From the NCBI GenBank assembly GCA_903934035.1, contig CAIZMK010000135.1, positions 1 through 34,899 on the forward strand: 34,899 nucleotides of DNA, read 5' to 3'. The translations under genes and the position numbers were made by a program. This document shows positions 733 through 14,182 of this stretch, piece after piece. A model generated the notes under the pieces. It worked only from the letters and a program-made list of their open reading frames with translations, searched no databases and was not told the origin of the DNA. Position 1 is the first letter of the stretch. Each line of letters opens with the position of its first letter. This DNA comes from an uncultured Methylococcaceae bacterium (lineage in GTDB: Bacteria > Pseudomonadota > Gammaproteobacteria > Methylococcales > Methylomonadaceae).

Positions 733-1050
733 ATGGGCGCAGATAATTTAATGAGAGAAATTCGCGATATTAATTTAAATTATTTAATATTAGCTCAGCA
801 CATGATACGCGAAGATATGGATATGGCTATTTATAGGCTGGGAATTAGTCAAGAAATAGCGGTCACTATAAATAACTTAAGCAGTGCTCAGCTAATGAAA
901 TTAGCTAGTAGTACCTCGATGATTACCAGTTTTCGCTTTGATGACGTTATGATATTGGAAATGTTGACAAATGACAAAAAGTCAGTGCCAATGTCTCATG
1001 CGCATTCGGCAATATTATTGGCAAATCAGCCGGTTAGAGATATTTGCTAG
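733..1050 (+). CDS. flhD: Flagellar transcriptional regulator FlhD
   Basis: FlhD is one half of the FlhD4C2 complex that activates flagellar class II promoters with sigma70 RNA polymerase. The 105-residue product has the family's usual length and the conserved opening with REIRDINLNYLILAQ and MIREDMDMAIYRLG, followed by the FRFDD segment. The ATG is preceded by a purine-rich GGTGATGAG stretch. It lies 30 bases upstream of flhC and is almost certainly cotranscribed with it. The sequence resembles betaproteobacterial FlhD more than the enterobacterial form. Assignment is firm; the lineage remark is an impression from remembered motifs. Confidence 0.95.
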   Translation: MGADNLMREIRDINLNYLILAQHMIREDMDMAIYRLGISQEIAVTINNLSSAQLMKLASSTSMITSFRFDDVMILEMLTNDKKSVPMSHAHSAILLANQPVRDIC

Positions 1051-1080
1051 CTAAGGTTAGTTCAGAAATGGAGACGTGTC

Positions 1081-1632
1081 ATGGCTAGAAAGCAACAAAG
1101 TATACTAGAAGAATTAAAAGAAATTCAATTGGCATCTGAGTTAATAACATTTGGTGCACGTTTACAGTTGCTTGAAATGGAGATCGGACTGTCTCGTGAT
1201 CGTTTAATTAAACTCTATAAAGAACTGCGTGGTGAATCTCCGCCTAAGGGTATGTTGCCATTTTCAGTTGATTGGTTTTTAACCTGGCAGCCCAATATTC
1301 ACTCCTCATTATTTATCGCTATATATAGACAATTAATTGCCAATACTTCAGTTACTGGTATCGAAGCTAATATTAAAGCTTACAAATTATATTTAGAACA
1401 AATGCCAGCAGAAGATGATGAAGAACAAGTGTTATCTTTAACTCGTGCTTGGACTTTGATTCGTTTTATTAATAGTTCAATGTTAACAGTTGCTACCTGT
1501 GAATGTTGTACAGGCCAATTTGTTTCTCAGCCCTTTGATCGAATTCATTATGTTTGTGGTTTATGCCATGTACCTAGTCGTGCAGGCAAAACTCGTAAGG
1601 CTAGCGAAGAGCTGTTGTTGTTTGCGAGTTAA
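1081..1632 (+). CDS. flhC: Flagellar transcriptional regulator FlhC
   Basis: FlhC is the DNA-binding and zinc-binding partner of FlhD. The 183-residue protein shows SRDRLIKLYKELRG, the PPKGMLPFSVDWFLTWQPN segment typical of the family, and two CxxC pairs (C140/C143 and C159/C162) matching the zinc site of FlhC. An additional cysteine, C142, sits inside the first pair. The PSRAGKT tail after the second pair is typical of betaproteobacterial FlhC. Start codon and length fit the family. With flhD it should control flagellar operons, including the flhB operon further along in this window. Confidence 0.96.
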   Translation: MARKQQSILEELKEIQLASELITFGARLQLLEMEIGLSRDRLIKLYKELRGESPPKGMLPFSVDWFLTWQPNIHSSLFIAIYRQLIANTSVTGIEANIKAYKLYLEQMPAEDDEEQVLSLTRAWTLIRFINSSMLTVATCECCTGQFVSQPFDRIHYVCGLCHVPSRAGKTRKASEELLLFAS

Positions 1633-1693
1633 GCGGGCAATCAATATTATGGCTTAAGCTTATCAATCTGATATATCTTTAGGAAGGTGAGCA

Positions 1694-2125
1694 ATGCATG
1701 TTAGTGAAGTTATGACTAAGCCGGTAGTGACTATTGGTTTAGATGAAAGTGTTAGAGACATCAAGGAAGTTTTTGAAAATACTAGAATACGTCATATTTT
1801 AGTAGTCGATGAAGGTAGGTTGTTTGGTGTGGTATCTGAACGTGATTTACTTAAGTCGATGAGTCCCTGTTTAGAAGATCATCTTTATACCACTCGTGAT
1901 TTAGCATTGCTTAATCAACGAGTGCATCAAATAGTCATTAGAAATCCGTTTTCATTAAATGTTAATGCCGGAGTTCATGAGCTCATCAATATATTTAAAA
2001 ATAAGCGTATTGGCTGCATTCCAATTGTAGATGATAATGCTGTTCCTGTAGGCATTGTTACCCGTAGCGATATATTTAGAAATTTCGATAAGATTTGTGC
2101 AGTTTATTTTGATAGAGAAGACTAA
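1694..2125 (+). CDS. CBS-domain pair protein inside the motility operon
   Basis: The 143-residue protein consists almost entirely of two CBS motifs forming one Bateman module. The first runs about residues 1-60 (HVSEVMTKPVVTI, FGVVSERDLL) and the second about residues 77-137 (GCIPIVDDNAVPVGIVTRSD). Such modules bind adenine nucleotides or S-adenosylmethionine and regulate partners; no catalytic domain is attached. It starts after an AGGAAGGTGAG ribosome binding site, 61 bases after flhC, and ends 3 bases before motA, so it is translated in the flagellar operon. A role as a nucleotide-responsive modulator of the stator or of FlhDC is inference from position only. Confidence 0.85.
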   Translation: MHVSEVMTKPVVTIGLDESVRDIKEVFENTRIRHILVVDEGRLFGVVSERDLLKSMSPCLEDHLYTTRDLALLNQRVHQIVIRNPFSLNVNAGVHELINIFKNKRIGCIPIVDDNAVPVGIVTRSDIFRNFDKICAVYFDRED

Positions 2126-2128
2126 ATT

Positions 2129-2995
2129 ATGATGATAATTATTGGTTATGTCGTTGTTATGGCGGCAGTGTTTGGTGGCTTTGCTTTATCTGGAGGGCAT
2201 TTAGCTGCTTTATTTCAACCATTAGAACTATTGATGATAGGAGGTGCTGCTATTGGTGCTTTTTTGGTTGGAAACGACATGAAGGCCATCAAGTCCACCT
2301 TGAAAACTTTAGGAAGTTTATTTAAAAGCTCAAATTACAGTCGTTTATTGTATGTGGAGTTGCTGCTGTTGATGTATCGCTTTCTAAGCAAAATTCGTTC
2401 TGAAGGTTTAATAGCGATTGAAAATGATGTTGAAAAGCCAGAAGAAAGTCCCTTGTTCAATGATTATCCTTTAGTTTCTGCTGACCATCATTTGGTTGAA
2501 TTCTTAACAGATTATTTACGTTTAATTGTTTCTGGGAAAGCAGATCCCTTTCAGCTAGAAAATCTGATGGATAACGAAATAGATACTCATCATGAAGAAG
2601 CTGAAGTTGCTATTCATTGTATTGCTAAATTAGGTGATGGTTTGCCTGCATTTGGTATCGTAGCTGCTGTAATGGGAGTAGTGCATACCATGGAATCAGT
2701 GACTTTGCCACCCGCTGAATTAGGGGAGTTAATCGCACATGCTTTAGTGGGTACTTTTCTAGGTATTCTATTAGCTTATGGTTTCGTCGGTCCTTTATCA
2801 GGGTTAGCCGAGCAAAAACTGCATGAGTCTTCTAAACCCTATCATGTAATTAAAGTGACATTAATTGCCAGTATGAATAATTATCCTCCCGCATTAGCTG
2901 TTGAATTTGGCCGTAAGGTTCTTTTTTCAACTGAGCGTCCAACATTTAATGAGATTGATGAGGAAATAAGACAATCCAAAACCAAGGCTAGTTAA
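2129..2995 (+). CDS. motA: Flagellar stator subunit MotA
   Basis: MotA is the multi-pass membrane subunit of the ion channel that drives the motor. At 288 residues it is close to the enterobacterial length. It has two N-terminal membrane segments, the cytoplasmic region with RSEGLIAIENDVEKPEES carrying the charged residues that contact FliG, and the third and fourth membrane segments containing GDGLPAFGIVAAVMGVVH with the conserved proline. Two adjacent ATG codons (2129, 2132) could start it; the choice changes one residue. It follows the CBS gene by 3 bases and precedes motB by 2, suggesting translational coupling. It belongs to the proton-type MotA branch by similarity. Confidence 0.96.
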   Translation: MMIIIGYVVVMAAVFGGFALSGGHLAALFQPLELLMIGGAAIGAFLVGNDMKAIKSTLKTLGSLFKSSNYSRLLYVELLLLMYRFLSKIRSEGLIAIENDVEKPEESPLFNDYPLVSADHHLVEFLTDYLRLIVSGKADPFQLENLMDNEIDTHHEEAEVAIHCIAKLGDGLPAFGIVAAVMGVVHTMESVTLPPAELGELIAHALVGTFLGILLAYGFVGPLSGLAEQKLHESSKPYHVIKVTLIASMNNYPPALAVEFGRKVLFSTERPTFNEIDEEIRQSKTKAS

Positions 2996-2997
2996 TT

Positions 2998-4032
2998 ATG
3001 GCTGAAGCACCTCGTCCTATCATTATAGTAAAGCGCAAGAAAGTTGTCGCGGGTGGTGCTCATGGTGGTGCTTGGAAGATAGCTTATGCCGATTTTGTTA
3101 CGGCAATGATGGCTTTCTTTTTATTAATGTGGTTATTAGGTATTACAGAAGAAGTAACGCGTGGTGGTATTGCTGATTATTTTAAAACGCCGATCAAGTC
3201 AGCGGTTTTAGGTAAGAAAGGCACTAATGTCAGTGTAATCGAACTAAAAGGTGGTGGTAAAGATGCTGCAGAGTCTAAACAAGGACTAACTACCAATAAG
3301 ACTAAAGCTTTACCTATTAAAGAGATAAACGTAAATAAAGCCAAGGAAGCTTTGAAGCGTGAAGAAATGAAAAAAATGGAGGGCATGAAGGCGAAGTTGG
3401 ATCAATTAATTGAAATTAACCCTAAATTAACGCCTTTCAAAAATCAATTGTTAATAGATGTCACCAGCGAAGGTTTACGTGTACAAATAGTTGATGAAAA
3501 AAATCGTCCTATGTTTGCCTTGTCAAGTGCTGAGTTATCGCCAACTGCAAGAACCATTTTGCTTGAGTTAGCTAAAACTTTAAACGAGTTGCCTAATAGA
3601 ATAAGTCTGTCTGGACATACAGATGCTAAGCCCTTTGCTAATGGTGGTCAGGAATATACTAATTGGGAGTTATCCTCAGAGCGTGCAAATGAAGCGAGGC
3701 GCGTACTTATTCAAGGCGGAATGCTTGAAGATAAGTTGTTGCGCGTAATTGGGCTGTCATCATCTGTGCTTTTAGATGCTCAAGATGCCTTAAATCCGAT
3801 TAATCGTCGTATTAGTATAATTTTATTGAATAAGCAAGCAGAAGAATCCGCACAAAGTGAGGGTAGTCGTCAGACTGTTAATATAAAAGACCCTAGAAGT
3901 GACGATGATGAGTCGGCACCAGATGCAAATGCTTCTAAGGTCGAACCTGGTCAGCCAGTTCCAGAGGTGGAGGTACCTCCAGCTGAAATTAATCAGAAAA
4001 TAGTGGGTGGAAATGAGCCTGTAAAACCCTAA
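2998..4032 (+). CDS. motB: Flagellar stator subunit MotB
   Basis: MotB anchors the stator to peptidoglycan. The single membrane helix after AYADFVTAMMAFFLLMW carries D32, the ion-binding aspartate at the same number as in E. coli. The OmpA-like peptidoglycan-binding domain lies about residues 160-280 (SGHTDAKPF, NWELSSERANEARRVL, NRRISIILL). A tail of about 60 residues rich in Pro, Glu, Asp and Val follows the OmpA domain and lacks obvious structure. It is the last gene before a likely weak terminator and a 142-base gap. A second stator pair, motC/motD, lies on the opposite strand. Confidence 0.96.
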   Translation: MAEAPRPIIIVKRKKVVAGGAHGGAWKIAYADFVTAMMAFFLLMWLLGITEEVTRGGIADYFKTPIKSAVLGKKGTNVSVIELKGGGKDAAESKQGLTTNKTKALPIKEINVNKAKEALKREEMKKMEGMKAKLDQLIEINPKLTPFKNQLLIDVTSEGLRVQIVDEKNRPMFALSSAELSPTARTILLELAKTLNELPNRISLSGHTDAKPFANGGQEYTNWELSSERANEARRVLIQGGMLEDKLLRVIGLSSSVLLDAQDALNPINRRISIILLNKQAEESAQSEGSRQTVNIKDPRSDDDESAPDANASKVEPGQPVPEVEVPPAEINQKIVGGNEPVKP

Positions 4033-4174: not shown

Positions 4175-4912
4175 ATGAATCAAAAAACAAATGAAATTGA
4201 TGAAGACGCTATCAATCAGATGATTGAAGATTTTGGCTTTTCTCCAGAATCTTTTGAACAGGCTGAGCATGATCAGGTGGATGCTCTGCTTACTTCAAAT
4301 CAAGCAAAAGAAGAAGCTAAGAGTAAAGTGATGTATGAGCGCTTGGGCGTTACTGTTCGTCATTTACATGATTCTATACGAGAAATAGGTTATGAGCAGA
4401 AAGTATTAGATGATACTTTAATTGAGATTTCTAATTCTCAAGATCGTTTAAATTATATTGCTACCTTAACAGAGCAAGCAGCTAATAAGGTTTTAAATGC
4501 AGTTGATGAAGCACTGCCCATTCAAGCTGATCAAATTGTAAAAACAAAAGAAATGCTGGTTAAATGGACATCTATGCTAAATAGCCTAGAAAAAACCGAT
4601 GGTTTAGCTGAAATAATTGAACATTCTATAAATTATGCCAATTTAGTGGCTGAGAACTCAGAGTCTGAGAAAGATCGACTAATGGTCATCATGATGGCTC
4701 AAGACTTTCAGGATATAACTGGACAAATTATTAAGAAAATTGTCGGTTTGGCTCAGACTCTTGAAATAGAATTAGCACAAATTTTAAAAGATTGTGCACC
4801 AGGTAATGTGACCGTAGAAAAACCTGTTGATTTATTATCAGGTCCTATCGTTCCAGACATGGCTTTGGTGCAAGATGATGTAGACAGTATGTTGGCTGAT
4901 TTAGGTTTTTAG
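4175..4912 (+). CDS. cheZ: CheY-P phosphatase CheZ
   Basis: CheZ dephosphorylates CheY-P to reset the motor. The 245-residue product has the [13 protein letters not shown] helix (about 62-74), a long helical hairpin, and the active-site segment [12 protein letters not shown], in which D180 and Q184 correspond to the catalytic Asp and Gln of E. coli CheZ. It ends in [13 protein letters not shown], the tethered CheY-binding peptide. The N terminus carries related sequence: NQMIEDFGF (residues 14-22), and [10 protein letters not shown] (32-41). AAGG at 4164-4167 is the ribosome binding site. Its position before cheW, apart from cheY, is unusual because cheY and cheZ are normally neighbours. Assignment is firm. 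Confidence 0.94.
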
Positions 4913-4961
4913 ACCCACATACATTAATAATTCAAGTCTTATCAATATGGAGAAAAATAGC

Positions 4962-5477
4962 ATGAGTAAATCTGGAGCTGAAGGATTAGGGTATTTAGGT
5001 GATGATGGCGAAGATCTTGCATCTGGCAAAGAGTTTTTGTCTTTTATCTTAGGAGCTGAAGAATACGGCATTGATATCTTAAAAGTTCAAGAAATCCGAG
5101 GTTATGAACCTGTAACTCGTATTGCTAACGTTCCTGACTTTATAAAAGGTGTTGTTAATTTAAGAGGCACCATAGTTCCAATTTTGGATATGCGCATTAA
5201 ATTCAATTTAGGATCTAGAACTTATGATGATTTAACCGTGGTGATCATTCTTAATGTCAATAACCGAGTTATGGGCATTGTCGTCGATGGTGTGTCTGAA
5301 GTAATTATGTTAGAAGATGACAAAATTAAGCCACCACCAGAAAAATTAGGTTCAGCATTTAATACCGATTATTTAATAGGTTTAGGTGTTTTGGACGAGC
5401 GAATGTTAATTTTGATTGATATTGATAAATTAATGTCTAGTGATGAAATGGGCTTAATTGATTCATCTGTGGCATAA
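4962..5477 (+). CDS. cheW: Chemotaxis coupling protein CheW
   Basis: CheW is the SH3-like adaptor linking chemoreceptors to CheA. The product shows [18 protein letters not shown], the [20 protein letters not shown] core, and [10 protein letters not shown], all standard for the family. The start is set at the ATG at 4962 because GGAG at 4949-4952 lies nine bases upstream. The in-frame ATG at 4947 overlaps that ribosome binding site and would add only five residues. The resulting 171 residues match the usual length. It lies six bases before cheB. Confidence 0.95.
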
Positions 5478-5483
5478 AATAAA

Positions 5484-6560
5484 ATGGCTATTAAAGTTTT
5501 GATTGTCGATGATTCTGCATTAATGCGTAGCATAATGACTGAAATTATTTCGAGTCACCCTGACTTAGAAGTCGTCGGTGTGGCACCTGATCCTTTGGTC
5601 GCCAGAGATTTAATTAAACAATTGGATCCAGATGTTCTAACATTAGACGTTGAAATGCCTCGTATGGATGGCTTAGATTTTTTAGAAAAACTAATGCGCT
5701 TAAGGCCTATGCCTGTCATTATGGTTTCTTCGCTTACTGAGAATGGTTCTGATATCACTCTAAGAGCATTAGAATTAGGTGCGATTGATTATATAACTAA
5801 ACCAAAATTAGCCATAAAGTCAGGTATGTTAGAGTATGCTGATTTATTGGTCGATAAAATAAAAATAGCTTATTCTGCAAAAGCTAACATTGATTTTCAT
5901 GCTAAAAGACTTAAAAATAAACTTCCTATGGAAGTTTTGTCCTCGGTAGGAAGTCATTATTTAAGTAGCGAAAAGTTAATTATGGTGGGTGCCTCAACGG
6001 GTGGGACTGAAGCCATAAAAGAGTTTTTAATGCAAATGCCATCAGATTGCCCCGGTATTTTAATTACTCAGCATATGCCTAAGGGCTTTACCTCACAATT
6101 TGCACAGCGATTAGATCGTATCTGTAATATAAGAGTGTTAGAAGCCACCGGTGGAGAGCGGATTTTACCAGGTCATGCTTATATAGCACCAGGTGATCAG
6201 CATATGCGTTTAGCAAAAAATGGCGCTAATTACATAATACAGCTTGATAATGAACCTCCTGTAAAAGGACATCGTCCGTCGGTGGATGTTTTATTTCATT
6301 CGGCTGCTAAATATGCAGGTAAAAATGCGGTAGGTGTCATTTTGACGGGTATGGGTAAAGATGGTGCATTGGGATTGTTGGAAATGAGAAATATGGGGGC
6401 TTATAATTTTGCCCAAGACCAAGATTCCTGTATCGTATTTGGTATGCCTAGAGAAGCTATAGCAATTGGTGCGGCCCATGAGGTTGCTCCGTTATCAAAT
6501 TTAGCAGGTTTAGTGCTTGATCATTTTAAAAAGAATGAAAAACCTGCGCTTAGGTTATAG
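5484..6560 (+). CDS. cheB: Protein-glutamate methylesterase CheB
   Basis: CheB removes methyl groups from chemoreceptors and deamidates glutamines, giving adaptation. The 358-residue protein has an N-terminal receiver domain with phospho-acceptor D55 ([11 protein letters not shown]) and the K107 region (YITKPK). A linker leads to the esterase domain with the catalytic triad S171 (GASTGGTEA), H197 (TQHMP) and D293 (GMGKDG). Its partner methyltransferase CheR is not encoded in this window, nor is any receptor. CheB lies directly behind cheW and is followed after 65 bases by cheY1. Confidence 0.96.
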
Positions 6561-6625
6561 AAATAAGGTAAATAAAATGCTAAGTTTTAATAATAATCTT
6601 GTATGGTTAAATTATTGGAGTAGTC

Positions 6626-7018
6626 GTGGTAGATTTTAAAGATATGAGATTTTTAGTAGTAGATGACTTTTCAACTATGCGTCGAATAATTCGCAATCTT
6701 TTGAAAGAGTTAGGTTATAACAATGTTGATGAAGCCGAAGATGGTAGTATGGCTTTGGCAAAATTAAATCGTGACACCTACGATTTTATTGTTTCTGATT
6801 GGAATATGCCAGTTATGGATGGCTTAGAGCTTTTAAAAGCAGTACGAGCTGATGCTAAACTTGCTCATATACCTATGCTAATGGTCACTGCTGAAGCTAA
6901 AAAAGAAAATATAATTGCTGCTGCACAAGCAGGTGCAAGTAGTTATGTTGTAAAGCCATTTACTGCAGCAACGCTAGATGAAAAAATTAGTAAAATTCTT
7001 GAAAAGCTAAATAAATAA
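6626..7018 (+). CDS. cheY: Chemotaxis response regulator CheY (CheY1)
   Basis: A single-domain receiver of 130 residues, the closest in the window to E. coli Che[14 protein letters not shown], phospho-acceptor D58 in [10 protein letters not shown], switch residues in VTAEA and K109 in VVKPFTA. Phosphorylated CheY binds FliM and changes rotation. The GTG at 6626 is the likely start: GGAG at 6617-6620 precedes it and the N terminus then matches the family length, whereas the next ATG would trim six residues. It is followed after 13 bases by the small CheZ-like gene. Confidence 0.95.
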
Positions 7019-7031
7019 ATAGATTAAGGTT

Positions 7032-7511
7032 ATGGAAAAGTCTGACCAATATTTAGTATCGACTGAAATGATTGATTTTACTCGATCTATTGATACGCAT
7101 TTTGTTGCAGCTATTGCAGATATAAGACAGATTACTTTAATTTTGGATGAGGCTGTTAGTAAACTGCATAATAGTTTTTTTTTGATCAATAATAGCTTAG
7201 AAGCTAATCGTGGCAATTTAGGTGATTTGGATATTGATGTATTAACTCCTTCACTTAATACCGCCGTTACTGCGTTACAATTTCATGATTTAACGAGCCA
7301 ACTTTCAAGTCGCTTAGTCAATCGTTTAGATGGAATGAGTGAGATCCTTGAATGTACTCAGTATTTAAGTGGTGATAAATCTGAAACGCTCGTAGATGTT
7401 TTAGCAATTCTTAATGCACGTGTGCTGGAACACAATGATAACTTACATAAAAAATTTAATCAGTCATTGAATCAACAGCATATGGAGAGTGGTGATGTTG
7501 AATTATTCTAA
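7032..7511 (+). CDS. Second CheZ-type protein with DxxxQ motif
   Basis: A 159-residue all-helical protein lying between the two cheY genes. The segment LQFHDLTSQLSSRLVNRLDGM (written here as LQFHDLTSQ followed by LSSRLVNRLDGM) resembles the CheZ active-site helix. D86 and Q90 align with the catalytic Asp and Gln in the DLTGQ motif of CheZ. It lacks the N-terminal LHD..RELGY helix and the canonical C-terminal CheY-binding peptide, although it ends in the acidic-hydrophobic ESGDVELF. It is therefore a shortened CheZ-like protein, possibly acting on one of the flanking CheY proteins. The motif is seen directly; phosphatase activity is inferred. It could also be a non-catalytic CheY-binding helical protein. 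Confidence 0.75.
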   Translation: MEKSDQYLVSTEMIDFTRSIDTHFVAAIADIRQITLILDEAVSKLHNSFFLINNSLEANRGNLGDLDIDVLTPSLNTAVTALQFHDLTSQLSSRLVNRLDGMSEILECTQYLSGDKSETLVDVLAILNARVLEHNDNLHKKFNQSLNQQHMESGDVELF

Positions 7512-7544
7512 TCAGTTCAAGAATGAAAGTGTGGAGTACATAGT

Positions 7545-7913
7545 ATGATAACTGTCCTAGCTGTTGACGATTCTCGTTCATTGCGGCAAATGGTAGTCTT
7601 TAGTCTTAAATCAGCGGGTTATCAAGTAGTAGAAGCTGAAGATGGTGTTGATGGACTTGAGCAAGCACAAAAGCAAGTTTTTGACGTGGTATTAACAGAT
7701 CAAAACATGCCACGTATGGATGGATTAACGTTAATTGAGAATTTGCGTGCATTGCCGGCCTATATGAAAACACCTATTTTGATGTTAACTACAGAAGCCG
7801 GTGATGAGATGAAAGCTAAAGGTCGTGCCGCAGGAGCTACAGGGTGGTTGGTTAAACCTTTTGATCCTGAGCGTTTAATTGCTGTGGTTAATAAAGTCGC
7901 TAATAAATCTTAA
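7545..7913 (+). CDS. Second single-domain CheY-like response regulator (CheY2)
   Basis: A 122-residue receiver without output domain: VLAVDDSRSLRQM, phospho-acceptor D52 in TDQNMPRMDG, TTEAG switch threonine and WLVKPFDPE lysine. It differs clearly from CheY1 (TDQNMP instead of SDWNMP) and resembles the receivers that sit directly upstream of cheA in many non-enteric chemosensory clusters. It may be a phosphate sink, a second motor regulator or an adaptation signal; sequence alone does not decide. cheA begins 12 bases downstream, with its AAGGAG ribosome binding site overlapping the stop codon of this gene. Confidence 0.92.
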   Translation: MITVLAVDDSRSLRQMVVFSLKSAGYQVVEAEDGVDGLEQAQKQVFDVVLTDQNMPRMDGLTLIENLRALPAYMKTPILMLTTEAGDEMKAKGRAAGATGWLVKPFDPERLIAVVNKVANKS

Positions 7914-7924
7914 GGAGCATTGGA

Positions 7925-9994
7925 ATGGCAATCGACATCAGTCAGTTTTCTGAGATGTTTTTTGAAGAAACTGAAGAGCTTTTGGCTGATTTAGAAAGGT
8001 TGCTTCTTACCGTCGATATAGACGCACCTGATATTGAAGACATCAATGGTATTTTTAGAATAGCTCATAGCATTAAGGGAGGTGCAGCAACATTTGGTTT
8101 TTCTGATTTAATTGAGATTACCCATGTTCTAGAGTCTATGCTTGATAAAATTCGTCATGGAGAAGACGTTTTTACTGCTGATCATCAAGAGGTTTTATTG
8201 CAATCTCGTGATGTTTTAAAAATGCAGTTAGATGGATTAAGATATAATTCGCCAGTAGATGTTGATAAAGCTGTAGACATTAAAGCTGTTCTGTTGTCTA
8301 TGATTGACAAACAAGCTTTAGAACCTGCTCCACAGGTATTAAAAGCCGAAGTAAATTTGGTTCCAGAAGTTCAAGAAATTTCTAAATTTTCTAAACAATT
8401 TATCATTGAATTACCCGAAGTATCAGCTAGAGATTTAGAGTCACTTATAGAAGAGCTATCTTTGTTAGGTGATTTAACGCATAAGCAAGAAGAGGGTAAA
8501 TGCGTTATTTTAGATTTAGCTACCGATGAAGGTGTTGATGATATATTGGCATTATGTTCATTCGTACTTGATCCCAATTTAGTTAAAGTTGTAGAAAAAA
8601 GTGCAGGACAACCCACTCAAGTAGTTGAACCTCCAAAAGCCGCCCCTACAATTTCAGACGATGATGACAGTTTTGGTTTCTTTGATGACCCTGAACCAGT
8701 TGTTGAAAAGCCAGTTGTAGTCGCACAAGCAGAACCTATACCTGTTCCAACACCACCTATACCGCCTGTTGCAGCTAAAAAACCAGCCCCTAAAGTTGAG
8801 GCTGCCGCTGTTAATACTGATGCTACTAGTATTCGTGTCAGTGTAGAAAAAGTTGATCAATTAATCAATTTAGTGGGTGAGTTAGTCATTACTCACGCTA
8901 TGATTTTAAAGCGTGCAGAGGGTATGGATGATGTTTTATATGAAACTCTGTTAAATGGTATTACTCAATTAGGGCAAAATAGTCGTGACTTGCAGGAAAC
9001 TGCCATGTCAATGCGTATGATGCCTATCGATGTTGTGTTTTCACGTTTTCCTCGTATGGTTCGTGAATTAGCTACTAAGCTCGGTAAACAAATAAACTTA
9101 GTTACTCAAGGTAATAACATTGAATTAGATAAAGGTTTAATTGAGCGAATTATTGATCCACTTACGCATTTAGTTAGAAATAGTATTGATCATGGTATTG
9201 AAACTACTGATATACGTTTGCAAAAAGGCAAAAGTGAATTGGGTCGTTTAACTTTATCAGCAACGCATCAAGGTGGACATGTTCTGATTGAGGTAAGTGA
9301 TGATGGGGCTGGACTTAATCGCGAAAGAATTCTTAAAAAAGCTCAATCTGAAGGAATAGCCATTCGTGATGGAATGACTGACGATGAAGTTTGGCAGTTA
9401 ATATTTGCACCTGGTTTTTCTACTGCAGAAACGGTCACTGACTTATCGGGTCGTGGGGTCGGCATGGACGTGGTTAAGCGTAATATTAACAGCTTAGGTG
9501 GTGTTGTGAATATTAAGTCGGTAGTGGGTGTTGGTACGGTTACTTCGGTTTCATTACCCTTAACATTAGCTATCATGGATGGCATGTCTGTCAAAATTGG
9601 TGAAGAAACATACATCCTACCTCTTAATTACGTGCTGGAATCATTCCAACCCTCAGAAGCTAACCTTAAAGAAATTAACGGCACTAGTAGTTTGATTTTT
9701 GTGCGTGATAGATATTTACCTATTATTCCGTTGCATGAGGTTTTTGATATTGAAGCTCGTCATAAGGAACCTACCTCAGGAATTTTAGTTGTTATTGCTT
9801 CTGATGATAAAAGAGCTGCACTTTTAGTTGATGAGTTAGTAGGTCAGCAACAGATAGTTGTTAAGAATATTGAATCGAATTTCAGAAAAATTAATAATAT
9901 TTCCGGAGCCACTATTATGGGCGATGGTAAAGTCTCATTAATTATTGACGTTAGCGATTTATTAAATAGTCAATACACGCGTATTCCCCTTTAA
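7925..9994 (+). CDS. cheA: Chemotaxis histidine kinase CheA
   Basis: CheA phosphorylates CheY and CheB on receptor signals. Domains of the 689-residue protein in order: P1 HPt (1-125) with phospho-histidine H48 in AHSIKGGAATFGF; a P2-like response-regulator binding region (about 158-225); an acidic and proline-rich linker (226-298, including DDDDSFGFFDDPEP); P3 dimerisation (about 301-370); P4 ATPase with N-box HLVRNSIDHG (around N419), G1 DDGAG (459-463) and G2 GRGVGMDVVKRN (509-520); P5 CheW-like domain to the end. AAGGAG at 7912-7917 lies seven bases before the ATG. It is the last gene of the + strand motility operon. Confidence 0.97.
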   Translation: MAIDISQFSEMFFEETEELLADLERLLLTVDIDAPDIEDINGIFRIAHSIKGGAATFGFSDLIEITHVLESMLDKIRHGEDVFTADHQEVLLQSRDVLKMQLDGLRYNSPVDVDKAVDIKAVLLSMIDKQALEPAPQVLKAEVNLVPEVQEISKFSKQFIIELPEVSARDLESLIEELSLLGDLTHKQEEGKCVILDLATDEGVDDILALCSFVLDPNLVKVVEKSAGQPTQVVEPPKAAPTISDDDDSFGFFDDPEPVVEKPVVVAQAEPIPVPTPPIPPVAAKKPAPKVEAAAVNTDATSIRVSVEKVDQLINLVGELVITHAMILKRAEGMDDVLYETLLNGITQLGQNSRDLQETAMSMRMMPIDVVFSRFPRMVRELATKLGKQINLVTQGNNIELDKGLIERIIDPLTHLVRNSIDHGIETTDIRLQKGKSELGRLTLSATHQGGHVLIEVSDDGAGLNRERILKKAQSEGIAIRDGMTDDEVWQLIFAPGFSTAETVTDLSGRGVGMDVVKRNINSLGGVVNIKSVVGVGTVTSVSLPLTLAIMDGMSVKIGEETYILPLNYVLESFQPSEANLKEINGTSSLIFVRDRYLPIIPLHEVFDIEARHKEPTSGILVVIASDDKRAALLVDELVGQQQIVVKNIESNFRKINNISGATIMGDGKVSLIIDVSDLLNSQYTRIPL

Positions 9995-10312: not shown

Positions 10313-10693
10313 TCAATGCATAGATGAAATTTGCTTATCTAATGCTTTTAGGGTTTGCTCTAATATGTCTAAAAAATATTCACTTTTGCTGACATCAATA
10401 TGACCTTCTTTTAATGAGTAATTGAGAGTTAGGCTGGCAGACTGTAATGATTTAGCTCCTATCATTTGTGCTGAACCCGCTATTTTATGAGCTTCTCGTT
10501 GAACTGTTATCAATTGGTTATCTTGCAGAGCTAGTTTGATATCTTGGAGTTTTTGTGAATAATCTTTGTAAAAACTTGTTAGCAAATCTTTTAGCTGTTC
10601 CTGATTATTGCTAGTTATTAAATTTAACTCTGTTAATTCAATAAGTGGCGGTGATTGTTCTTGGTCTTTAATAATGAGTTGATTATCGTTCAT
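10313..10693 (-). CDS. Stand-alone histidine phosphotransfer (HPt) protein
   Basis: A 126-residue helical protein with the HPt signature AHKIAGSAQMIGA around phospho-histidine H69. HPt proteins carry phosphate between a hybrid kinase receiver and a final response regulator. It lies 92 bases downstream of a hybrid sensor kinase that has a receiver but no HPt domain of its own, so the two probably form one relay. No obvious ribosome binding site precedes the ATG. The terminal response regulator is not identifiable here; the CheY proteins across the convergence are possible acceptors, but that is speculation. Confidence 0.85.
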   Translation of the reverse strand: MNDNQLIIKDQEQSPPLIELTELNLITSNNQEQLKDLLTSFYKDYSQKLQDIKLALQDNQLITVQREAHKIAGSAQMIGAKSLQSASLTLNYSLKEGHIDVSKSEYFLDILEQTLKALDKQISSMH

Positions 10694-10785
10694 AGCTTTT
10701 GGTGAATTTATTTTGCAAATAATTTAAAATTGACTTTAGTAAAGTTACTAATGGTTTTCTGTTAAAGGTTAATTACTTAACCTTA

Positions 10786-12396
10786 TCATTTAATCTGAAC
10801 TAATACAGTGACCAATTCATTTTTTAAGCATTCAAATATAATGGGTTTTGCAATAAAACTATTCATTCCTACTTCAAGGCAGGCTTCTTTTTCATGCATT
10901 AAAACACCGGCACTCATGCCGATGATAGGCAACTCATTAATGTGATGTGTTTTTCGAAGTAACTGAGTGGCTTGTAAACCATCCATAATAGGCATTTGAA
11001 TATCCATTAACACTACATCAAAGTTTTTTGATTTCATCATTTCAATGGCAATAGCTCCATTTTCAGCTATTTCGATGTCTTTGATATTCAATTTATTTAA
11101 TAACAGTTTAGCGACGATTTGATTCATTGAATCATCTTCAACTAGCAATACTCGTTTAGTTGATAATAAATTATCATCTATGTCGATTAGTTGGCTATCA
11201 ACGTTTGTTTTATCATAATCTTGAGTGGATTCAAAATCCAATTCAAAACTAAATGTTGATCCTTGTCCTAATTTACTTTCTACCTTAATTTCCCCACCCA
11301 TTGATTGGACTAATTTTTGTGAGATAACTAAGCCTAGTCCTGTTCCACCAAAGCGTCTCGTGATGGTGTTATCTGCTTGTGAAAAGCGGTGGAATAATTG
11401 CGAAATTTTAGCTTCTGATATGCCAATGCCAGTGTCATGGATAGAAAATTTGAGGCGGTTAATGTTCTTGTCAGTTGAAGTGCAATCAGAGTAACCAATT
11501 TCTAAAGTTACCATACCTATAGGCGTAAATTTAAAAGCATTGCTTAGTAAGTTGAGTAATATTTGTTTTAAGCGTAAATCATCACCTATTAAGGTATATG
11601 ATTTATTTGTAATACATGGACAATTACAATTTAGAGTGAAGTTTTGTATGTCATTTGGAAATAGCAGTAGGATTGAATCAAGTAAATCTTTAAATACGAA
11701 AGGTCTATTTTGTAACGAAAAACCGTTTGCTTCAATTTTCGATAGTTCAAGAATATCATTCAGTATGGTCATCAAGTGTGAGGATGCTGTATTAATCTGC
11801 CGGAGGTACTGCTTCATTTCCTCGAGATTATTACAATCTTGTGCTAATGAAGACAGGTTGATCACACCATTCATAGGGGTTCTTATTTCGTGCGACATAT
11901 TAGCTAAAAATTGGCTCTTAGTTAAAGCTAATTGTTCGGCTTTGTTTTTTTCGGCTAAAAGATTTTGTTGAACATTTTTTAGGTCAGTGATATTTCTTTG
12001 TATTCCTACCCAGTAAATAAGATGACCTAATGTATTAAAATAGGGCGTAATTGTAAATGAATTCCAAAAAGTACTGCCATCTTTGCGATAATTACAAAGT
12101 TCAATGCTAATGGGTTCTTGCTTTTCAATGGCTAATTGTAGAGCTTTAACTGAGTCTTTATCAGTTAGTTCACCCTGAAGAAATTTTGGGGTTTTGCCTA
12201 AGGACTCTAGTTCGCTATATCCGGTATGAAAGGTAAATGCTTTATTAATATAGATAATATGTCGTTTATGATCAGTGATGATTACGCCATCAATAGGGTC
12301 ATTATTGAAAAGTGATTTGGCGTGTATTATGAATTGTTTATCTGAATTCATTGTTTGCCATGGTTTTTTTAAGACCCTTAAGACATTTAAAATCAT
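10786..12396 (-). CDS. PAS-domain hybrid sensor histidine kinase with receiver
   Basis: The 536-residue protein has, in order, one PAS domain (about 25-138), a HisKA domain with phospho-histidine H169 (FLANMSHEIRTPMNG), a HATPase domain (N-box LLNLLSNAFKFT, DTGIGI at 321-326, GTGLGL at 351-356) and a receiver with D465 (LMDIQMPIMDG). No membrane segment or signal peptide is visible, so it is probably cytoplasmic. The PAS domain is LOV-like (GKTPKFLQG at 67-75, RKDGSTFWN at 104-112), but the position of the flavin-reactive cysteine is proline, so flavin photochemistry of the LOV type is not expected. GGAAG precedes the start. It pairs with the HPt gene downstream. Confidence 0.93.
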   Translation of the reverse strand: MILNVLRVLKKPWQTMNSDKQFIIHAKSLFNNDPIDGVIITDHKRHIIYINKAFTFHTGYSELESLGKTPKFLQGELTDKDSVKALQLAIEKQEPISIELCNYRKDGSTFWNSFTITPYFNTLGHLIYWVGIQRNITDLKNVQQNLLAEKNKAEQLALTKSQFLANMSHEIRTPMNGVINLSSLAQDCNNLEEMKQYLRQINTASSHLMTILNDILELSKIEANGFSLQNRPFVFKDLLDSILLLFPNDIQNFTLNCNCPCITNKSYTLIGDDLRLKQILLNLLSNAFKFTPIGMVTLEIGYSDCTSTDKNINRLKFSIHDTGIGISEAKISQLFHRFSQADNTITRRFGGTGLGLVISQKLVQSMGGEIKVESKLGQGSTFSFELDFESTQDYDKTNVDSQLIDIDDNLLSTKRVLLVEDDSMNQIVAKLLLNKLNIKDIEIAENGAIAIEMMKSKNFDVVLMDIQMPIMDGLQATQLLRKTHHINELPIIGMSAGVLMHEKEACLEVGMNSFIAKPIIFECLKNELVTVLVQIK

Positions 12397-12549: not shown

Positions 12550-13431
12550 TTAGTGGATTTCGTTTCTGGATGCTGATGGATATTCTTCGGTTGATTTAGC
12601 CATAATTGAAAGTTGAACTCTTCGATTACGCATCCGGCCTTCAGGGGTGGCATTTGTGGCAATGGCTTGATTATCAGCGTTGCCAACTGCAGCTAAACGT
12701 TTGGAGTCAATGCCTGCATCAATAAGCAGTCTAACGACACTACTAGCACGTGCAGCGGAAAGTTCCCAATTTGAAGGATAATAGGCATTATTAATGACTT
12801 TATTGTCTGTATAGCCGGCAACATGGATTAGTTGTGATTGATCTTTTAGGATATCAGCAATAGGCTGTAAAATTTGTATTGATTCAGGATTAAGCTTAGC
12901 TTCTGCAGCACCAAACAATATGCTAGCGTTGATTTCTATACTAATTCCCCAGTTTGAAAGTGTTACATGAACTTTGCCTTGATTGACTAATGGTGCTAAG
13001 CGTTGCTCTAATTCATGGGCAATATTTTTGATTTGAGTTTTATTTTGTTCTAGTTTTTGTTGTTCTTCATTTGCTTTAGTTATTTCAGTTGGGTTAACTG
13101 GTGTAGGCTCTTCGCTTATGGAGGTTAATTCAAGGGCAGGGGGTATTAATACCGATATGGGCTCAGGAGCAAGAAAATCAGTAGGTAATTGAAGGTTTTC
13201 TAACATTAATGGATTGCTAGAGATATTCCCTAATTTTGATGAAATTGGCGCAGAGGGATTGCCTAAAGCATTGCCTAAGGAACTCGACATTTGCAGAAAC
13301 TTTTTTTCTTGTACTGATGACACGGCATATAACACGACAAAAAATGCAAACATCGAGGTCATTAGGTCGGCATAAGAAATTAACCAGCGGTCTTTATCCT
13401 CTGGATCTTCAGGAATTCTTTTACGAGCCAT
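12550..13431 (-). CDS. motD: Second flagellar stator subunit, MotD (MotB-like)
   Basis: The 293-residue protein has the short N-terminal MotB-type motif DRWLISYADLMTSMFAFFVVLYAVSS with ion-binding D22, one membrane helix, a helical linker rich in Glu, Asn and Gln (about 100-150), and an OmpA-like domain (about 155-282: HVAGYTDNKVI, NWELSAARASSVVRLL, RMRNRRVQL). The aspartate-based motif and neighbourhood match MotD of Pseudomonas, where MotCD is the high-load stator. It overlaps motC by 11 bases, indicating translational coupling. Confidence 0.92.
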   Translation of the reverse strand: MARKRIPEDPEDKDRWLISYADLMTSMFAFFVVLYAVSSVQEKKFLQMSSSLGNALGNPSAPISSKLGNISSNPLMLENLQLPTDFLAPEPISVLIPPALELTSISEEPTPVNPTEITKANEEQQKLEQNKTQIKNIAHELEQRLAPLVNQGKVHVTLSNWGISIEINASILFGAAEAKLNPESIQILQPIADILKDQSQLIHVAGYTDNKVINNAYYPSNWELSAARASSVVRLLIDAGIDSKRLAAVGNADNQAIATNATPEGRMRNRRVQLSIMAKSTEEYPSASRNEIH

Positions 13432-14182
13432 AATTACGATCCTGATGCCAATGACTACTCATGCGTTCTTTAATTAACATGGGGTGCTCGCCTTGTTTAA
13501 TACACAATAAGGCGTCTGCTAGCATTTCGCGTTTTAGAATTTCAATTTGTATATGTTGTTTGAGTTTATTGGCGATAGGTAGAAAAACCAAATTGGCTAA
13601 GCCTATGCCATAGATAGTTGAAACAAAAGCCATAGCAATTCCTGGGCCAATTAAATGAGGGTCACTTAAATTTTCCATAGTGTTAACAAGGCCCATAACT
13701 GCACCGAGTATGCCCATGGTCGGCGCATAGCCGCCTGCGGCTTCCCAAACTTTAATAGCTTGGCGTTGATTACGCTCATAACTATTAATGTCTATGTCAA
13801 GAATGTCGCGAATTTTATCTAATTCGACACCATCCACTACTAAACGTAAGCCTTTTGCTATAAAGGGGTCTGGATAGGTATTGATATGCCGATCTAACTT
13901 TAAAAATCCTTCCATACGAGCTGTAGTGCTCCAGGTTTGAATAGTGGTTGTTAATTCTGGATAAAAGTCGCTGTAAGGTACAAAGGCTCGTCGTAGCATA
14001 CGAATGCCACGAATAAGATTGGATAAGCCATTTTGCAATAATACGGCACTTAACGTTCCACCTAAAACGATGATAATGGCCGTGGGATGTAATAAAGATC
14101 CTAGTGGTGATCCATCTATCCATTGTCCAGAGATGATCACAACTAAGCCTAAGATTAGACCTGCTAAACTTCCCCAATCCAT
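13421..14182 (-). CDS. motC: Second flagellar stator subunit, MotC (MotA-like)
   Basis: The 253-residue MotA-family protein has N-terminal hydrophobic segments (SLAGLILGLVVIISG, TAIIIVLGGTLSAVLL) and the third and fourth membrane segments around GGYAPTMGILGAVMGLVNTME, which holds the conserved proline. The shorter length and motifs fit the MotC/PomA-like branch rather than enteric MotA. A perfect AGGAGG (complement of 14187-14192) lies four bases before the ATG, one of the strongest ribosome binding sites in the window. It starts 90 bases after flhG, where the sigma factor gene fliA sits in Pseudomonas; no fliA is present. Confidence 0.92.
   Translation of the reverse strand: MDWGSLAGLILGLVVIISGQWIDGSPLGSLLHPTAIIIVLGGTLSAVLLQNGLSNLIRGIRMLRRAFVPYSDFYPELTTTIQTWSTTARMEGFLKLDRHINTYPDPFIAKGLRLVVDGVELDKIRDILDIDINSYERNQRQAIKVWEAAGGYAPTMGILGAVMGLVNTMENLSDPHLIGPGIAMAFVSTIYGIGLANLVFLPIANKLKQHIQIEILKREMLADALLCIKQGEHPMLIKERMSSHWHQDRNYGS

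Follow-up and report, generated by a model that had tools for sequence, protein, structure and literature searches.

The chemotaxis operon of an uncultured Methylococcaceae bacterium (GenBank assembly GCA_903934035.1, contig CAIZMK010000135.1, positions 1 to 34,899; the whole 34,899-nucleotide stretch, contig C135 within its genome, is referred to here as the window) encodes a 159-amino acid protein between its two cheY genes, which we call X. X shares homology with the helices on either side of the signalling domain in McpA-like chemoreceptors. It carries a DxxxQ pair (D86 and Q90) resembling that of CheZ and ends in a GDVELF tail that CheD has in relaxed form. From these features, X most likely derives from a receptor and serves the F7-type CheY encoded next to it (cheY2) as a terminator or docking partner, and perhaps, as a guess, as a CheZ-like phosphatase.

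Relatives of X were collected by a scan of named genomes that returned 248; we kept the best 80, and all 80 gave an X protein. Because the scan used patterns based on motif and tail, this set is biased, and so are the conservation counts taken from it. A five-row X profile matched 97/201 genomes of the order and 77/276 genomes of the class, the matches being a mixture of short X, longer receptors, another family of about 180 amino acids, and perhaps some CheZ-length open reading frames (ORFs). An earlier annotation made from the letters of the window alone (the sequence-only reading) had correctly given the gene order cheY1-X-cheY2-cheA and its coordinates, the D86/Q90 pair within LQFHDLTSQ, and a canonical CheZ with D180/Q184 and an ADLGF end. 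Its D/Q pair also proved conserved, with both residues kept in 81/81 X proteins (the 80 pattern-fetched relatives and the window). The residue before the Asp was Gln in 72 and His in 9 of these. D and Q were likewise kept in 7/7 X or McpA-type proteins at loci reached via CheY2 (L162, L163, L165, L166, L167, L269, L270), one with LQSED in place of LQFxD; these seven were chosen by a D...Q expression and the tail and hence are no blind test.

Longer matches to the X profile included many receptors of ~400 amino acids, and all six that were scanned contained the MCP signalling domain (PF00015), which a Pfam search did not find in X. We took these longer relatives as McpA-like because a Vibrio F7 operon shows the published stage-1 order (see below), in which the DxxxQ receptor immediately follows cheB. 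That operon reads cheY-cheA-cheW-cheW-receptor (DEWEEF)-cheD-cheB-receptor, the last receptor carrying LQFTDIIVQ and ending in EGEVELF, with cheR and the anti-sigma genes outside the query. Identity as McpA is thus by operon order, not by the Pseudomonas aeruginosa McpA sequence. The first 61 loci held 45 such receptor ORFs. With the motif and tail masked, the X profile scored 12.3–52.0 bits against the flanks of 45/45 receptors, above every control (shuffles ≤10.9 bits, 845 scored of 900; reversed sequences ≤8.4, n = 45; ordinary receptors ≤10.5, n = 72), which establishes the kinship. Both proteins have the two base helices, DxxxQ, a tail with Val or Ile second and, in some lineages, the slot before the F7 cheY; they differ in the signalling domain and in length. 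The Asp of DxxxQ lay 119 residues (17 heptads) after LLALN in 45/45 receptors, and at the same distance in the Vibrio receptor. Among 80 ordinary receptors, 73 reached this position and none of the 73 had D/Q there. Ordinary receptors of the other loci ended in EWEEF, DWEEF, or SWEEF in 49/73 cases.

The conserved tail of X, G-D-[IV]-E-L-F, was found in 79/81 proteins (GDIELF in 69, GDVELF in 10, with one GEITLF and one other ending). The sequence-only reading held that X had no tethering peptide and was wrong on this point, since X ends in a conserved C-terminal peptide, MESGDVELF. CheD has a similar end. All 45 CheD ORFs of the 80 loci ended in G[DEA][IV][DE]LF (in 11, an additional residue was present), only 4/45 passed when [VILFM]E[LI]F was strictly required at the end, and 25/30 CheD proteins of a class sample passed a relaxed test. 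CheD was present in 75/77 profile-positive genomes, and in Methylococcales bacterium AMbin126, whose X is identical to that of the window, cheD shares a contig with X and lies ~8 kb upstream of it (L062). In the available text of the study of chemotaxis origins in E. coli (PMC7184735), the end of McpA is said to be strongly conserved, to have Val second in P. aeruginosa, to be of unclear role, and to bind none of four CheR proteins. In Shewanella oneidensis, swimming is reported to increase when McpA is overproduced (PMC9855816). We rejected an ordinary CheR/CheB pentapeptide, as the tail of X has Val or Ile second and lies outside x-[HFYW]-x2-[HFYW], and reportedly McpA does not bind CheR. 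The F7 CheY would be the simplest partner for the tail, a guess made because the same source has CheD and the F7 CheY lost together.

The pattern [VILFM]-E-[LF]-F-stop occurred at 39 sites in the genome of the window, fewer than the 50 of a reversed control pattern. Five of these sites ended ORFs of at least 100 amino acids (a CheX-domain protein, two receptors, X, and a second DxxxQ protein), and all five were chemosensory. The second DxxxQ protein (L193:5827-6411, minus strand, contig C218) has 194 amino acids, IQFQDVVRQ, and a KIELF end, and directly follows a CheY in a chemosensory cluster that also has cheA, a ParA-like ATPase, and a receptor ending in RFELF. The CheX-domain protein (PF13690, 3e-9; L191:4032-5000, plus strand, contig C11) lies beside two CheYs, one of them 69% identical to CheY2. 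Like X, it is chemosensory, adjoins CheYs, and has a C-terminal tail (GELELF), but it belongs to another domain family and the two have no Pfam likeness.

The published history of the F7 operon, as far as the available text of PMC7184735 describes it, begins with an anti-sigma antagonist, cheY, cheA, two cheW, aer2, cheR, cheD, cheB, mcpA, and further genes (stage 1). mcpA and two neighbours then shifted to the front (stage 2) and are said to have been lost (stage 3); flhDC-motAB joined the front and an F6 cheY/cheZ pair the back, resulting in two cheYs (stage 4); and CheD and the F7 CheY were lost together (stage 5). In stages 1 and 2 cheZ occurs only with F6 systems. Because its gene order matches these stages, we assign the window operon as stage-4-like, with cheY2 the ancestral F7 CheY and cheY1/cheZ the F6-derived pair. 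An apparent mcpA remnant, X, thus appears to occupy the same slot in an operon type from which that account has mcpA lost.

In an unrooted tree of F7 CheYs (56 chosen rows, 118 columns), 25 CheYs with X, 6 with a receptor, and 2 with neither fell on one side of a branch with 99/95 support. The gene directly before cheY2 encoded, depending on lineage, either short X or an McpA-like receptor of full length. The best topology needed three changes of the "short X" label, of which the well-supported branches forced only one, so X and McpA may have been interchanged as few times as once. Since the tree is unrooted and has 118 columns, we infer the direction from receptor to X from the published stage order. 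The CheY2 of the window grouped with other Methylococcales and Malikia, a betaproteobacterium, in this tree (98/91) and in another F7-CheY tree (99/98). As X was matched in only 6/61 near genomes, that of the window included (single-sequence search), this grouping suggests that the flagellar/che block moved between classes. By record title, X relatives (best 80 of 248) were mostly Betaproteobacteria (Oxalobacteraceae, Thiobacillus, Methylophilaceae, Malikia) and Methylococcales, with a few metagenome-assembled genomes that fit neither. One scan with the window protein recovered no viral X relative, and tblastn with one betaproteobacterial X recovered no plasmid copy. A Comamonadaceae plasmid reached via CheY2 encodes a divergent X-like protein (L270:10890-11872, plus strand) with LQSEDALVQ and a GSIDLF end before cheY2, adjoining another unannotated protein of 158 amino acids.

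X was directly before cheY2 in 79/80 loci, and cheA came next in 78 of those 79. Its nearest recognised upstream gene was motB in 48/80 loci, cheY1 in 5, and motA in 2, with none in 25, and orthologues of flhC, motA, and motB were also found in relatives. cheZ was seen in 24 loci. In 18 of these cheY1 was no more than 300 bp away; the remaining six comprised five Methylococcales-type loci with the order of the window and L082. The F7 CheY occurred in 75/77 profile-positive genomes, which are related to each other and of which one (G496) may fall outside the 276-genome class sample. Owing to this kinship, p values for the co-occurrence with the F7 CheY and with CheD overstate its strength. The sequence-only reading had proposed that CheZ moved away from cheY in the window, and comparison with these relatives agrees. 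Its further proposal, that each CheY could have a dephosphorylation route of its own, fits as far as gene pairing goes, because X adjoins cheY2 (79/80) and cheZ adjoins cheY1 (18/24).

As a statement of family, the earlier label "CheZ-type" did not hold up. Window X had no Pfam match up to an E-value of 10, CheZ and the CheC/CheX/FliY families included, and one weak, unrelated NCBIfam match; we excluded CheC/CheX membership on that absence. Eight of 29 X members touched PF04344 at E-values up to 1. The best (L133; 1.1e-4) reached 22.6 bits over residues 16–137, a span of 122 residues that extends beyond the motif, against a curated cut-off of 30.7. Unmasked X scored a median of 6.6 bits against the CheZ profile and its shuffles -0.6. 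An hhalign comparison of X and CheZ covered 25 columns with D/Q in register (E-value 2.4e-4, probability 43.6%). AXXFQ and DXXXQ are described as CheZ motifs (PMC7750401), and ALQFHDLTSQ fits the combined AXXFQ-DXXXQ context with His replacing the Q of AXXFQ. In 18/18 aligned CheZ proteins, D180/Q184 and the LGF part of the end were invariant. X and CheZ have in common an F-[QH]-D-x-T-x-Q context, a predicted helical hairpin, and a low-confidence end that carries a conserved C-terminal peptide, but CheZ ends in xLGF, not GDVELF, and the CheY2 beside X has no Lys92. We conclude that X fits poorly as a member of the CheZ family, to which it may still be remotely tied.

The monomer model of X predicted helices at 3–58, 65–113, and 117–152 and a low-confidence end (predicted local distance difference test, pLDDT, 77.3; predicted template modelling score, pTM, 0.58; the CheZ model had a pLDDT of 66). 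In CheZ the helical hairpin forms a four-helix bundle in the dimer; the model of X covers one chain. D86 lies ~24 residues from the turn of the predicted hairpin, similar to D165 in the 87–195 hairpin of Azorhizobium CheZ (PMC7750401; midpoint computed here). A precedent is CheT of Sinorhizobium meliloti, a DXXXQ protein from a two-CheY operon that favours one CheY, as summarised in the available text of a review (PMC12654446). CheT is alphaproteobacterial and forms a complex with CheR, and its likeness to X is by description, not sequence. Together with the FxDxTxQ context of D/Q and the lack of CheZ from the cheY2 lineage in stages 1 and 2, and the pairing of X with cheY2, this precedent and the distance from D86 to the turn speak for a possible phosphatase.

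In the mechanism we propose, an McpA-like F7 receptor would have lost its long signalling hairpin while its two base helices stayed and a short loop came to connect them. This base would keep the CheZ-like Asp/Gln pair and the end the GDVELF docking tail. The tail may bring X to a partner that it shares with CheD, the F7 CheY being the simplest candidate, where Asp86 and Gln90 could speed phosphoryl loss from CheY2 or otherwise shut it down, leaving the F6-derived cheY1/cheZ pair to run the motor. We give this reading about an even chance of being right. Its extension to the receptors, that McpA-like proteins have a CheZ-like active site built into the rod at a constant height and that X is this site cut free, with h-E-L-F as an F7-CheY docking code in McpA, X, CheD, and CheX-type phosphatases, is rather doubtful.

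Several results weigh against a phosphatase acting on CheY2. With the motif masked, X scored a median of 0.7 bits against the CheZ profile and reversed X 0.95, so this profile showed no similarity outside the motif. A Foldseek search with the X model returned no solved structure at an E-value ≤0.001, and the 50 matches listed were unspecific helical proteins without CheZ; a profile search of the PDB gave CheZ (1kmi) at an E-value of 0.45, ranked under unrelated coiled coils. Ordinary receptors of the genome of the window have methylation-type glutamates at the D/Q position (LVEESAAAA, L143), and the receptor DxxxQ may thus serve another purpose. Lys92 of E. coli CheY is the salt-bridge partner of the CheZ catalytic Asp. 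CheY2 has Asp there in 78/80 rows, and the exact geometry of CheZ could therefore not be copied; CheY1 keeps the Lys in 45/46 rows, with one gap. Comamonas CheY1, presumably the cheY2 orthologue from its locus tag by cheA and its D52, decays fast unaided and is proposed to be a phosphate sink in the available text of PMC6391922. All six CheYs with X or McpA directly upstream, that of the window included, had the Asp corresponding to Asp87. We rejected this as proof of a link because the six are of shared descent and the Asp also occurs in 4 of the other 24 CheYs (L164, L168, L173, L175).

A competing possibility, somewhat less probable than the proposed mechanism, is that X has no enzymatic role and acts as a docking or competitor protein, keeping the McpA base and tail in order to hold CheD, CheY2, or another tail reader near or away from the array, with D/Q as packing or binding residues. 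Conservation of the tail nearly equals that of the motif and extends to CheD, the receptor motif sits in a methylation helix, and the CheZ similarity of X is mostly motif, all of which speaks for this account; yet Asp and Gln are kept in 81/81 X proteins and 45/45 McpA-type receptors, with the F-x-D context, more than packing usually needs. Another option is that X regulates CheD (or CheB/CheR) as a decoy substrate, Gln83 and Gln90 imitating receptor deamidation sites and the tail delivering X to the adaptation enzymes. The interplay of CheC and CheD elsewhere is a model for such a regulator, and the motif lies at the register of receptor methylation sites in a protein whose tail CheD has too, with CheD in nearly all profile-positive genomes and near X in AMbin126. 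We nonetheless consider a decoy improbable: the residue before D in X is His or Gln, with no paired Glu/Gln methylation site, and the McpA C-terminus, with Val second, bound none of the four CheR proteins in the available account (PMC7184735).

Descent from a cheZ duplication, making X a true but very divergent CheZ, appears very unlikely. The in-register hhalign columns, the eight members touching PF04344, and above all the sub-threshold match of L133 speak for it. These matches fall under the curated cut-off, though, X with its motif masked scores about as reversed X does, the clear homology is instead to the McpA flanks, and the tail is unlike the LGF end of CheZ.

The genes of the window lie in the plus-strand order flhDC, CBS-domain ORF, motAB, cheZ, cheW, cheB, cheY1, X, cheY2, and cheA, closely spaced from cheZ to cheA (Table 1). 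A PAS-type hybrid histidine kinase and a separate Hpt-like protein (10313-12396, minus strand) lie between cheA and a second motA/motB-like pair (12550-14182, minus strand), which gives the window two stator sets; these names were assigned by reading. The che clusters of relatives also contain a family of 178–179 amino acids (L233:4059-4595, minus; L234:2653-3189, plus; L236:4034-4567, minus), with no convincing Pfam family. Its two translated members carry FQFYDRMQQ, again DxxxQ, and its ends are DIELF, KVELF, or NIELF.

Table 1 Features of the chemotaxis operon in the window, with the basis of each assignment
Feature	Coordinates	Strand	Basis or description
flhD, flhC, CBS-domain ORF, motA, motB (upstream of cheZ)	733..4032	+	names read from translations
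Canonical cheZ	4175..4912	+	PF04344, 1.8e-48
cheW	4947..5477	+	PF01584 match, 5031-5444
cheB (receiver and methylesterase)	5484..6560	+	name read from translation
cheY1, motor-type CheY, F6-derived by comparison with the available text of PMC7184735	6626..7018	+	PRK10610 CheY, 1.2e-67
X (159-amino acid ORF)	7032..7511	+	helical, McpA-related hairpin; DxxxQ; GDVELF tail
LQFHDLTSQ motif of X (residues 82-90, D86 and Q90)	7275..7301	+	hhalign pairs D/Q with CheZ D180/Q184
GDVELF tail and stop of X	7491..7511	+	sole genome match to the G[DE][VIM][DE][LF]F-stop pattern
cheY2, F7-type CheY; D52; Asp87 at the E. coli Lys92 position	7545..7913	+	family scan, tree, comparison with PMC7184735
cheA (Hpt, CheY-binding, dimerisation, ATPase, and CheW-like domains)	7925..9994	+	Pfam

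In the open literature we recognised no paper on X, on DxxxQ in McpA, or on the tail common to McpA and CheD; subscription papers and supplements were outside this scope. In the 2020 model for the origin of E. coli chemotaxis, as given in its available text, mcpA vanished as F7 took over the flagellar motor, and the McpA C-terminus is left unexplained (PMC7184735). Our comparisons suggest that the receptor base and tail persist as a small unannotated protein beside the F7 CheY, with the tail also on CheD. This offers three testable handles in the binding partner of the tail, a possible terminator belonging to the F7 CheY, and possible phosphatase residues on a receptor. If the extension of the mechanism to the receptors is true, X would represent a receptor-born route to CheY dephosphorylation, the conserved C-terminus of McpA would be explained, and docking through h-E-L-F would couple signal termination to adaptation.

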